From Alloalcanivorax xenomutans (GTDB lineage Bacteria > Pseudomonadota > Gammaproteobacteria > Pseudomonadales > Alcanivoracaceae), in the NCBI RefSeq assembly GCF_900217905.1, contig NZ_OBMO01000003.1, positions 124,001-188,000 on the forward strand: DNA of 64,000 bases, read 5' to 3'. Position 1 is the stretch's first letter. Every line of letters begins with the position of its first letter. Shown here piece by piece: positions 55,958-60,240 of the stretch. Made by a program: the position numbers and the translations under genes. The notes under the pieces are model-generated. The model made no database searches. It saw only the letters and a program-made list of their open reading frames with translations, and was not told where the DNA came from.

Positions 55958-56044
55958 AAACCACCTCGCAGTCAGCGGGGCGGCATTCTACTATTAACCT
56001 GGCGTGAATGCCTATTGGGTTGGCGGTGCAGGGAGAAAACACCC

Positions 56045-56602
56045 ATGCGTTGTTTCATCGGACTGCCGGTGCCGGAGGAGGCCGGTCGCGCTCTGTTGAG
56101 GGGCGTTCCGGAAGGTGTTGGGCGGCAATTGCCGTTAGCGGATCTGCATCTGACTCTGGCGTTCCTCGGGGAGCGGGAGCTTTGCTGGACGCAGGCACTC
56201 TGCCGGCAACTGGAAGCGATCCTGGGGGGAGTACAGCCACTGAGCCTGAAACTTACTCGTGGCGGCCCCTTTCCACCGAATGGAAGTTCACCCAAAGGAA
56301 GCCCTTCCCGCGGCGGCCGGCTATGGGCGGCGAGGGCTTTGCCATCGCCAGCGCTGATGGCACTGCATGAGCGTATTTGGCGGCTTCTGGAAGATCTAGG
56401 CGTGGCACGTGACGAACGCGCCTTTCAGCCCCATGTGACCCTGGCTCGCGGCCGCCACCGGCTCACCGCGAAAATGGCAAACGAGAGCGAGAAAAGTCCA
56501 CCTGGAGACCATATCGAATTTGATGTCCACGAAATTGTTCTCTACGAGAGCCGACAAGGCTATCGGCCGCGCTGGCGGCAATCGCTGAAAAGCCAGCTCT
56601 GA
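56045..56602 (+). CDS. thpR: RNA 2',3'-cyclic phosphodiesterase ThpR (2H family)
   Basis: The 185 residues start MRCFIGLPVPEEAG and have the two HxT motifs of the 2H superfamily, HLTLAF and HVTLAR. ThpR opens cyclic phosphates, and related enzymes ligate tRNA halves. A much longer frame is open upstream of the ATG at 56045, but it is the antisense shadow of rimO. Between the two motifs is an unusual Gly/Ser/Pro-rich loop (PPNGSSPKGSPSRGGR). Confidence 0.88.
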   Translation: MRCFIGLPVPEEAGRALLRGVPEGVGRQLPLADLHLTLAFLGERELCWTQALCRQLEAILGGVQPLSLKLTRGGPFPPNGSSPKGSPSRGGRLWAARALPSPALMALHERIWRLLEDLGVARDERAFQPHVTLARGRHRLTAKMANESEKSPPGDHIEFDVHEIVLYESRQGYRPRWRQSLKSQL

Positions 56603-56643
56603 GCCCCGGCACATAACTCCGGAACCCAGAGCCACTCAACGGG

Positions 56644-56874
56644 TTACTGCTGGCCTTCGCCGTAACCGCCCGCGCCTCCGGCGGAACCGCCGCCAGCGGG
56701 GTCTCCACCGTTCTGCATGCCCGGCTGAGAGGGCTGCTGCGGGTCGCCTGGTCCCGGCGAATCCGGCTGCTTGGGATCGCAAGCGGCCAGCACCGACCCC
56801 ATCAGCAACAAGGCCAGAGTGCCGGCCACGCCTCTTTTCAATCCGCGTCCTGGTTCCATTTTTCCGTCTTTCAT
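56644..56874 (-). CDS. Small low-complexity lipoprotein
   Basis: The ATG at 56874 with GGGAGGA six to seven bases upstream gives 76 residues. The signal peptide ends at the lipidated Cys32 (GSVLAAC). The next residue is Asp, which in E. coli directs inner-membrane retention. The mature part is only Pro, Gly, Gln, Asp and Asn (PDSPGPGDPQQPSQPG) and ends in a Gly-rich stretch. It lies downstream of the divergent secreted gene, so the ECF-type promoter at 57323 may drive both. No family recognised. Confidence 0.72.
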   Translation of the reverse strand: MKDGKMEPGRGLKRGVAGTLALLLMGSVLAACDPKQPDSPGPGDPQQPSQPGMQNGGDPAGGGSAGGAGGYGEGQQ

Positions 56875-56929
56875 GGTTTTTCCTCCCATTAAGTCGCTGT
56901 GCGCGGGCGGCGTCGGGCCGCCCGAATAA

Positions 56930-57241
56930 TCAGGGTCGATCGAGGTCGTCACCCCGGGTGTCGTCGCCGCCATCGCGATCCTCTCCGGTGGGCCAGCCAC
57001 GGTCGTCGGGCCGCCCCATATCCCCGGAGTCTCCCTCCAGGCCACCGGGGTTGCCGTAAGCAGGCTGCCCGGGCCGATCCGGATCCGCTGGTGGGCCGGG
57101 CTGGGCCGGCAGGGTACGCTGATAGTCGGGGTGGTCTTGTGCCGGGCGATCGCCATCATTCGCGGTAGCGGTAACGGAAGCGCCGAGAAAGGCGACGCCG
57201 AGGATCAGCAATAGAGTTTTGCGAACGGTCATTACATACAT
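56930..57241 (-). CDS. Small exported acidic protein, Pro/Gly/Asp-rich
   Basis: ATG 57241 (MYVMTVRKTLLLIL) has GGGAGG seven bases upstream. The first 24-28 residues are a signal peptide ending near ATAND. The mature ~75 residues are disordered, with DRP, PGQP and repeated GDD, DRDGGDD runs and very few hydrophobics. I recognise no family. The mirror-image ECF promoter (57323-57350, minus strand) lies about 75 bases upstream. Confidence 0.7.
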   Translation of the reverse strand: MYVMTVRKTLLLILGVAFLGASVTATANDGDRPAQDHPDYQRTLPAQPGPPADPDRPGQPAYGNPGGLEGDSGDMGRPDDRGWPTGEDRDGGDDTRGDDLDRP

Positions 57242-57322
57242 GTCATTACCTCCCGATCCATCGGGTGACTTCAGTGGGCGGGGTGCCGTCAAAAGGTCCG
57301 GATTACCGCCGCCTCACTACTG

Positions 57323-57396
57323 TCTACAGGCCAGGATCAGGTTTGGTTCCATGACGAAGTGTTTTTTGGGAACCAAACCACACCCCCGGCTGTAAG
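57323..57396. promoter_or_regulatory. Two mirrored ECF-type promoters driving sigma factor and exported-protein genes
   Basis: On the plus strand GGAACCAAACC (57369-57379) is followed, 16 bases after GGAACC, by TGTAAG (57391-57396). On the minus strand GGAACC (57350-57345) with the same AAACC extension is followed, 16 bases later, by TGTAGA (57328-57323). The identical element, spacing and orientation suggest one ECF sigma factor driving both directions, presumably the product of 57440-57955. GGAAC is a typical ECF -35 core. Confidence 0.7.
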
Positions 57397-57439
57397 TACT
57401 AATGAAGGCCTTAAGGTCGGCCGGAAAGGAACCGCCGGA

Positions 57440-57955
57440 GTGAGTTTTGAACGCCGGATCTGCGACCAGATCCCGCACCTGCAACGCTACGCCCGGGCCC
57501 TGTGTGACAACCCGGGACAGGCGGAGGATCTGGTGCAGGATTGTCTGGAACGGGCGCTGCGCAAGCGCCACTTGTGGATGCCCGGGCGTTCGGTACGGCC
57601 CTGGCTGTTCAGAATGCTGTACCGGCTGTACCTGAACGATCGCGCCAGTGCCCGACGGCGGTGGGAATCGTTGGCTCCGGATGCCGGGCTGGAGCGGCCT
57701 CAGGAAGCACGGCAGGAGCCCTTTCTGGCCTGCCACGAAGCAATAGAGGCGATGCGGGCATTACCCCCGGAGCAGCGGGCGGCGTTGCTGTTGATGGTGC
57801 TGGAAAGTCCTGGTTACGCCGAGGCAGCCCGCATTCTCGGCATCAAGGTGGGGACGCTGCGCTCACGTCTCTCCAGAGCCCGCGAGACACTGCGGCAGGT
57901 GCTCGACGGTCCGGTTCGGGGTGGCGGGCGCCCCCGGTTGAGGAGGGTGAAATGA
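57440..57955 (+). CDS. ECF RNA polymerase sigma factor
   Basis: The start is GTG 57440, with AAGGA nine bases upstream; an ATG at 57359 would lie inside the promoter. The 171 residues contain sigma region 2 (LQRYARALCDNPGQAEDLVQDCL) and region 4 (LPPEQRAALLLMVLESPGYAEAARILGI), separated by a linker. Such factors respond to envelope or other stress. The anti-sigma partner follows and overlaps by ATGA. Confidence 0.9.
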   Translation: MSFERRICDQIPHLQRYARALCDNPGQAEDLVQDCLERALRKRHLWMPGRSVRPWLFRMLYRLYLNDRASARRRWESLAPDAGLERPQEARQEPFLACHEAIEAMRALPPEQRAALLLMVLESPGYAEAARILGIKVGTLRSRLSRARETLRQVLDGPVRGGGRPRLRRVK

Positions 57956-58776
57956 GCTGGCGGGAGCAGGGTTTATTGTATCGCGAGATGGTTTCCGAAG
58001 AAGAATTGAACGCCTTCGCCGACGGCGAGCTGCCACGCCGGCGTGCCCGCCGGGTGGCCGCCGGAATCCGGCGGCAACCGGCCTACGCGGATCGTGTGCG
58101 TGACTACTGGCGTCATGACGAAACACTGTGGCGCGCACTCAAGGACGATAGCACCGCGGCACCATTGTCCTCTCCGGTCCAGGCGCCAGGCGCTGCCCCC
58201 CGGCGCCACTGGCTTGCCGCCGGAGGACTCGGCACGCTGGTGGCGGCAGGCGTGATAATGGCGGTGTGGTGGCAAACACCGCCTCCCGATCCGGCCACCG
58301 CGCGCCCTTCCGTCGACCTGACCCAGGCCATCGTCCATGCCTTCAGCAATCCAGTGGCGTTACCCGATACCACGCCGGCCCCGGCATTGCCACTGGATCG
58401 CCTGGGTCTGGTTTCCTCTGGCCAGCAGCCGCTGCTGGTTTCCGGACAGCATATTCAAGAGTACCGTTTCGAGAACGCCGAAGGGCAGCGGGTGGCGCTG
58501 TATGAAACAGGGCAGGGCGGATCCGGCGATAACTGGTTGCACGTGCTGACCCAGTCGCCGGTAACCCTGGTGCGCTGGAGCCAGAACGGACGCGGTTACG
58601 TACTGGCCGCGGACAGCGCGCCGCTGGAACTTACCCGGCTGGCGTTGGGCATCCACGATGCCCTGTCCATGGCGGCGGGCGCCACACCGGGGGCCGCCAT
58701 GCCATCGACAGCCCATGGCCCCGGCGGGCCGGCGGCCAATACGGCCACGGCGAGGGGCGATATCAGCGAGATGTAG
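57952..58776 (+). CDS. Anti-sigma factor, membrane-anchored, without zinc Cys/His
   Basis: The ATG at 57952 overlaps the sigma factor stop and has AGGAGG upstream. The 274 residues begin with an anti-sigma-type domain (about 14-65; LNAFADGELPRRRARRV, YADRVRDYWRHDETLW), a membrane segment near 85-105 and an extracytoplasmic domain of about 165 residues. The His/Cys pattern of zinc-binding anti-sigma factors is absent. A long frame upstream of the ATG is a shadow of the sigma gene. Confidence 0.82.
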   Translation: MSWREQGLLYREMVSEEELNAFADGELPRRRARRVAAGIRRQPAYADRVRDYWRHDETLWRALKDDSTAAPLSSPVQAPGAAPRRHWLAAGGLGTLVAAGVIMAVWWQTPPPDPATARPSVDLTQAIVHAFSNPVALPDTTPAPALPLDRLGLVSSGQQPLLVSGQHIQEYRFENAEGQRVALYETGQGGSGDNWLHVLTQSPVTLVRWSQNGRGYVLAADSAPLELTRLALGIHDALSMAAGATPGAAMPSTAHGPGGPAANTATARGDISEM

Positions 58777-58798
58777 CCGCGAGAAACAGCCCAATACG

Positions 58799-58824
58799 AA
58801 AAAGCCCGCGAAAGCGGGCTTTTT
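58799..58824. terminator. Bidirectional rho-independent terminator
   Basis: AAAAAGCCCGC / GCGGGCTTTTT with a GAAA tetraloop. It can end both the sigma/anti-sigma transcript (+) and the pnt operon (-). Confidence 0.92.
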
Positions 58825-58854
58825 CGTTGAAGCGGGCTTGAAGAAATGCGGCGA

Positions 58855-60237
58855 TCAGCCTTCCTTCAGAGCGGCGGTGATGTCCACCACCGCACCCTTG
58901 CCATCGCCAAACAACATCAGGGTGTTGTCCTTGGCGAACAGCGGGTTGGGCAGACCGGCGAAACCGGCACTCAGGGAGCGTTTCACCACCACCACGGTCT
59001 TGGCCTTGTCGACGTTGAGGATCGGCATGCCGTAGATCGGGCTGCCTTTGTCTTCGCGGGCCATCGGGTTGGTGACGTCGTTCGCGCCGAGTACGATCGC
59101 CACGTCGGTTTGTTCGAAGGTGGGGTTGATGGTGTCCATATCCTTGAGCTTGTCATAGGACACTTCCGCCTCCGCCAGCAGCACGTTCATGTGGCCGGGC
59201 ATACGGCCCGCCACCGGGTGAATGGCGTACTCCACTTCGACGCCGTTGGCTTCGAGGGTGTCAGCCAGTTCGCGCACGGCGTGCTGAGCCTGAGCCATGG
59301 CAAGACCGAAGCCGGGCACGATCACCACGCGCTGCGCGGTTTCCAGCAGCATGGCCACTTCGTCCGCGGAAGTGGATTTGATCTTGCCGGCGTAGACCTC
59401 ATCCTGATCAATGGTTTCGCCGCCTTCCGCCATCACACCAAACAGCACGTTGGTGAGAGAACGGTTCATGGCTTTACACATGATCTGGGTCAGAATCAGG
59501 CCGGAGGCGCCCACCAGGGAACCGGTAATGATCAGCGCGCTGTTGCCCATGACGAAACCGGCGGCGGACGCGGCCACACCGGAGTAGGAGTTCAGCAGCG
59601 CGATCACCACCGGCATGTCGGCACCGCCGATCGGCATCACCAGCAGGATGCCCAGCACGGCGGCGGCGATGGCCAGCCCCCAGAATACCGTTGGTGAACC
59701 GGGGTTGGAGACCAAGTAGGCAATCGCCACGATGGAGCCGAGCAGCAACACGGCGTTCGCCGCTTTCATGCCCGGGAAGCCCATCGGTTTGCCGTCGATC
59801 AGTTCCTGCAGTTTGGCGAACGCCACGAAGGAACCGGTGAAAGTCACCGCACCGATCAGTACCGCGGCCCCGGTGGCGATGATGCCCACCGTGTCCGGAT
59901 GGCCACCACGGAAGAACTCGGCCGCCGCCACGGAGAAGGAAGCGCCGCCACCAAAGCCGTTAAGCAGCGCCACCAGCTGCGGCATGGCGGTCATTTGTAC
60001 TTTCTTCGCCAGCAGCACACCAATGATGCCGCCGACCAGGATGCCGGCGATGATGATTTCATAGCTGACGATGTCCCGGTGCAGCAAGGTCACCACACAG
60101 GCCACCGCCATGCCCGCGCCGGCCAGCATATTGCCGCGCACCGCGGTTTTCGGTTTGGTCAGGCCCTTGATGCCGAGCACGAACAGCACGGCGGCGATCA
60201 AATAGGCGATATCGATCCAGTTCTGGGAAATCTGCAT
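58855..60237 (-). CDS. pntB: NAD(P) transhydrogenase subunit beta PntB
   Basis: PntB carries the NADP(H)-binding domain and membrane helices of the proton-pumping transhydrogenase. The 460 residues have eight or more membrane segments, then the NADP domain with VIVPGFGLAMAQAQHAV, GRMPGHMNVLLAEA and GANDVTNP motifs. It is the last gene of pntAA-pntAB-pntB, three bases after pntAB. Confidence 0.97.
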   Translation of the reverse strand: MQISQNWIDIAYLIAAVLFVLGIKGLTKPKTAVRGNMLAGAGMAVACVVTLLHRDIVSYEIIIAGILVGGIIGVLLAKKVQMTAMPQLVALLNGFGGGASFSVAAAEFFRGGHPDTVGIIATGAAVLIGAVTFTGSFVAFAKLQELIDGKPMGFPGMKAANAVLLLGSIVAIAYLVSNPGSPTVFWGLAIAAAVLGILLVMPIGGADMPVVIALLNSYSGVAASAAGFVMGNSALIITGSLVGASGLILTQIMCKAMNRSLTNVLFGVMAEGGETIDQDEVYAGKIKSTSADEVAMLLETAQRVVIVPGFGLAMAQAQHAVRELADTLEANGVEVEYAIHPVAGRMPGHMNVLLAEAEVSYDKLKDMDTINPTFEQTDVAIVLGANDVTNPMAREDKGSPIYGMPILNVDKAKTVVVVKRSLSAGFAGLPNPLFAKDNTLMLFGDGKGAVVDITAALKEG

Positions 60238-60240
60238 TGC

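Follow-up and report, generated by a model that had tools for sequence, protein, structure and literature searches.

Back-to-back ECF-type promoters, predicted to be read by the adjacent sigma factor, and their changing exported cargo in Alloalcanivorax xenomutans and relatives

Two opposed copies of the motif GGAACCAAACC-N10-CTGTA, located at 57369-57394 on the plus strand and at 57350-57325 on the minus strand of a 64-kb window of the A. xenomutans genome (the window being the whole 64,000-nucleotide stretch analyzed here), are very probably back-to-back promoters of the ECF type that are read by the sigma factor encoded at 57440. This sigma factor would activate its own sigma/anti-sigma operon and, in the opposite direction, an operon that encodes an exported protein and a lipoprotein. 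The elements and genes of the locus are as follows.

56644-56874, minus strand: gene for a small lipoprotein of 76 aa, the second in the target unit; lipobox LAAC; intact in L020, L021, and L024.
56930-57241, minus strand: gene for an exported Asp/Pro-rich protein (103 aa), first downstream of the minus promoter; hydrophobic signal segment; GGAGG ribosome site; truncated in L024.
57325-57329, minus strand: -10 element CTGTA of the target promoter; invariant in 4/4 close genomes; CTGTT in the sister clade.
57340-57350, minus strand: -35 element of the target promoter, exact match to GGAACCAAACC; core GGAACC at 57350-57345; invariant in 4/4 close genomes.
57351-57368, no strand: gap of 18 bases between the -35 hexamers; six-T run at 57362-57367; T/A run retained in most relatives.
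57369-57379, plus strand: -35 element of the sigma-operon promoter, exact match to GGAACCAAACC; core GGAACC at 57369-57374; invariant in 4/4 close genomes; GGAACC retained in the sister clade.
57390-57394, plus strand: -10 element CTGTA of the sigma-operon promoter; invariant in 4/4 close genomes; CTGTT or TTGTT in the sister clade.
57440-57955, plus strand: gene for a 171-aa ECF sigma factor, with GTG as start codon; product matches the Pfam models of sigma-70 regions 2 and 4 above cut-off.
57952-58776, plus strand: gene for a putative membrane anti-sigma factor (274 aa); its start overlaps the sigma stop codon; hydrophobic segment at about 87-107.

A preliminary description of this DNA had called attention to two identical, opposed 11-base -35 elements lying at the same distance from TGTA, and both statements hold exactly. 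In each copy the 11-mer is followed by 11 bases and then by TGTA (57391-57394 on the plus strand, 57328-57325 on the minus strand), so that GGAACC and TGTA are 16 bases apart; the -10 core common to both copies is CTGTA. The six-T run between the hexamers may serve as a UP-type element, and no housekeeping-type promoter was found in the region around the pair. The sigma gene starts about 45 bases past the plus copy, and its small product, which consists only of sigma-70 regions 2 and 4 (Sigma70_r2, Sigma70_r4_2, and TIGR02937 above cut-off), has the domain composition of an ECF (group 4) sigma factor. Self-activation is predicted from the conserved promoter preceding this operon, which is like that of the target unit. 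The protein encoded next to the sigma factor gave no family match above threshold in Pfam, and its predicted structure, a low-confidence model, has four N-terminal helices; its layout, with an overlapping ORF and a hydrophobic segment, fits the anti-sigma factors of the ECF26 type, in which an N-terminal anti-sigma domain and one membrane helix precede a periplasmic C-terminus, and its homolog in L042 has a weak zf-HC2 match. On the divergent side, where an exported-protein gene had been proposed as target, there is a two-gene unit: the lipoprotein gene begins 55 bases beyond the end of the gene for the Asp/Pro-rich protein, which has no Pfam family match, and it is the better conserved of the two.

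The 11-mer on its own is unremarkable relative to chance, since with at most one mismatch it occurs twice in the window against 1.03 expected. Nor are inverted pairs rare, since the window contains 38 with 11 bases or more, but only the motif pair bears an identical tetramer at an equal offset on both sides, an arrangement seen in none of 20 windows simulated with a first-order Markov model. A genome scan with the motif had been proposed, and the pattern GGAACCAAACC-N10..12-TGTA indeed gave exactly two matches in the 4.35-Mb genome, both at the motif pair, and none for the reversed-pattern control. A chance likeness of two unrelated stretches, to which the near-random frequency of the 11-mer with one mismatch might lend some credit, is therefore extremely improbable, because the full pattern occurs nowhere else in the genome, the motif is conserved over drifting spacers, and similar pairs exist in three gammaproteobacterial families, as described below. 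When two mismatches were allowed, nine places were found against four in the control, and the seven beyond the motif pair are at about chance level; convincing context was not found for the three genome sites with one mismatch. The looser pattern GGAACC-N14..18-TGTA was not enriched in the genome, where it matched 19 sites and its reversed control 46. The DUF4168 gene of this genome was considered as a second target and rejected, as a GGAACC promoter is absent upstream of it (L087). Because the scans yield no further target, the simplest reading is that the regulon appears to consist of one locus. The exported-protein gene, previously regarded as the "first" outside target, is supported as a divergent target, and no further target emerged from the genome scan.

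The pair is also conserved in close genomes; the closest named relatives are Alloalcanivorax balearicus and Alcanivorax sp. 24. The sigma gene is present in seven of the 46 family genomes, all of one genus, and the exact motif occurs in four of the 46, the only ones whose sigma gene is of the close form; it is absent from 42/42 family genomes without that form. In the four aligned intergenic regions, all 32 motif columns are invariant, compared with 6 of 20 columns in the -35/-10 spacers and 19 of the 38 remaining columns of the span. A fixed motif over drifting spacers is the footprint expected of two working promoters. It might be argued that the promoters are real but are read, alone or additionally, by another ECF sigma factor, given that further ECF candidates are present in the genome and that cross-recognition has a precedent in RpoE1 and RpoE4 of Sinorhizobium meliloti (PMC6180224). 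This is improbable, as the motif is missing from all family genomes that lack this sigma gene in its close form, and the -10 of both promoters changes along with this sigma factor.

This joint change is seen in three congeners (L026, L027, and L028), whose sigma factor is 65-70% identical to that of the window. Compared with window positions 56040-60240, their sigma/anti-sigma cassette has the opposite orientation between unchanged neighbors, a 2'-5' RNA ligase-like gene and pntB, and both promoters persist despite the inversion. In this sister clade the promoter toward the sigma gene reads GGAACCAAACC-N11-TGTTGG and that toward the target GGAACC[GG/AA]T...-TGTTGG; the distance from GGAACC to TGTT is 16 bases in both, and both -10 elements have become TGTTGG in place of TGTA. 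Such a joint difference is expected if one sigma factor reads both promoters. The AAACC extension of the -35 element is missing on the target side of the sister clade, so the recognition unit would be GGAACC; the 11-base -35 element reported earlier is exact in the window, but what is recognized is probably the shorter GGAACC...CTGTA. Pairs of this kind were found across three gammaproteobacterial families, one genome of another family (G186) having GGAACT on one side and GGAACC on the other, each 15 bases from TGTT, and one of a third family (G572) having GGAACC-N16-TGTT on both sides. The same comparisons bear on the idea that the inverted 11-base repeat is the operator of a transcription factor that binds as a dimer, or a hairpin in the RNA, rather than two -35 elements. 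The two arms do match perfectly over 11 bases, with 18 bases between them, and repeats of such size are common in the window, but the gap between the hexamers in nine relatives is 18, 18, 18, 19, 24, 11, 25, 66, and 9 bases, which argues against a dimer operator with its fixed half-site spacing. Moreover, the AAACC part is not retained on the target side of the sister clade, whereas TGTA or TGTT, which lies outside the repeat, stays 15-16 bases from GGAACC. We rejected the dimer operator because of the variable gap and consider it highly unlikely. The earlier proposal of a self-regulated ECF pair with an exported-protein target, on the other hand, gains support from the constancy of the motif, the joint change of the -10 elements, and the restriction to four of 46 genomes.

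The DNA itself shows the promoter elements, how well they are conserved, that they change jointly in relatives, and that the pair is unique in the genome. What the following scheme adds by inference is that transcription depends on the sigma factor, that an envelope signal releases this factor, and that the promoters compete. An envelope signal would free the sigma factor from its putative membrane anti-sigma partner (57952), and the sigma holoenzyme would then fire both promoters. In the plus direction, sigma and anti-sigma factors would be amplified together, giving self-activation with a built-in shut-off; in the minus direction, the short operon for the exported protein and the small lipoprotein would be transcribed. 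The hexamers are separated by 18 bases (9-66 in relatives), probably too few for two polymerases to occupy both promoters fully at once, and the two directions may therefore compete for polymerase. Sulfite, the known signal for S. meliloti RpoE1 and RpoE4 (PMC3511301), serves only as a precedent for the inducing signal here.

The locus shares features with several known systems. Escherichia coli RpoE (sigma-E) recognizes a GGAAC-type -35 element about 16 bases from the -10 element and has an Arg-Ser-Arg recognition helix. The window sigma factor is like RpoE in all three respects, but the sequence similarity is only weak (1or7 chain, E 3e-6), and RpoE has a different -10 element, a large regulon, and RseA as its partner. 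The general stress sigma factors of alphaproteobacteria (ECF15/EcfG) also share the -35 element GGAACC, as in the S. meliloti rpoE5 promoter (PMC6180224), and the best Pfam match of region 2 of the window sigma factor is the PhyR sigma2 domain; their -10 element is different, however, and the window genome is gammaproteobacterial. EcfG uses a NepR/PhyR partner switch (PMC4814048), not a membrane anti-sigma factor.

The locus also resembles group ECF26. As with S. meliloti RpoE1, RpoE3, RpoE4, and RpoE6 (PMC6180224, PMC3511301), the sigma gene is followed by a membrane anti-sigma gene, here a putative one, and the ECF26 regulons are small. The operons of RpoE1, RpoE4, and RpoE6 are each activated by the factor they encode, and RpoE6 in addition switches on its divergent neighbor SMa0142 (PMC6180224). 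RpoE6, whose overall identity with the window sigma factor is 37%, has a closely similar region 4.2 helix and likewise a divergent neighbor gene, in its case one for a serine protease. A divergent exported-protein gene, there a serine protease gene, is described as widely conserved in ECF26 (PMC6180224), and one is found in the window and its relatives, though it does not encode a protease. The published rpoE6 and SMa0142 promoters on pSymA (L085:8850-9020) overlap head-on, versus the back-to-back arrangement here. The ECF26 consensus is GGAATA at -35 with GT in the -10 element (PMC6180224). The window and all close relatives have GGAACC instead, with TGTA or TGTT, which does contain GT, against CGTC or CGTT, and the helix carries Arg instead of Met. 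Because of the deviating -35 element we do not claim ECF26 membership; as judged from sequence alone, the locus resembles an ECF26-type cassette in the way it would work.

Relatives of the Pseudomonas type, with 36-43% sigma identity, mostly have back-to-back GGAATA-N15/16-CGTC pairs (L043, L045-L051, L053, and L055). They show the same layout, in which both sides carry identical elements and the gap is short, but they differ in the -35 and -10 elements, and their GGAATA equals the published ECF26 -35 consensus (PMC6180224). The divergent gene of L043 is catalase-related (Pfam Catalase, 105.6 bits), and the divergent sides of L045 and L050 resemble that of L043 by eye. In the more distant L066 (G510), the ECF gene is preceded by GGAATA-N15-TGTA on each strand, and the divergent gene codes for an exported protein of the cytochrome c' type. 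In relatives with an assignable promoter, GGAACC accompanies the helix GTLRSRLS and GGAATA the helix GTVMSRLx, and the Arg-bearing sigma proteins form one group in the tree, which suggests that the Arg/GGAACC switch may have been a single event. The exceptions are L068 and L083, which have Arg with no GGAACC pair seen upstream, and L072, which has a GGAACC site though its helix carries Met; the link between helix and -35 element is for this reason put forward only as a hypothesis. L083 (G572:C7) is a second ECF homolog in G572, with one in-frame TGA within the match and no recognizable GGAAC or GGAAT promoter upstream. We tentatively propose, with rather less than even confidence, that a sister clade of ECF26-like sigma factors switched its -35 element from GGAATA to GGAACC along with Met to Arg, and later its -10 element from TGTT to TGTA, and that it kept the back-to-back bidirectional promoter, whose directions compete for polymerase, as a fixed unit for exchanged, unrelated exported genes (DUF4168, lipoprotein, Asp/Pro-rich protein, and helical protein).

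The cargo on the divergent side does differ between relatives, which makes the promoter pair more stable than the genes it drives. The window clade has the Asp/Pro-rich exported protein and the lipoprotein; L027 has, at the same place, a lipoprotein alone, similar to that of the window; L026, L028, and L042 have a DUF4168 protein (the domain was tested on L026 and L042); and L056 has a helical exported protein without a family match. At L024:1201-1374 (G019), only a short ORF is left of the first exported gene, but the lipoprotein gene that follows is intact, and the lipoprotein seems the better candidate for the conserved output of the window clade. A DUF4168 gene is present in every searched genome of the genus. 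Our literature search found no paper mentioning DUF4168 and none linking Alcanivorax with ECF sigma factors.

The circuit is of a known type and fairly ordinary: an ECF sigma/anti-sigma cassette with interchangeable exported cargo is a well-supported reading of these sequences. Its main interest is that relatives retain the promoter signals while the exported genes are swapped. The sigma/promoter pairs of the relatives also form a natural series, their -35 and -10 elements shifting jointly with the protein, so that small hypotheses on ECF promoter choice would be directly testable. For the Alloalcanivorax-like bacterium itself, the locus would represent a compact, bidirectional, single-locus sigma switch and may offer a first handle on two uncharacterized exported proteins.
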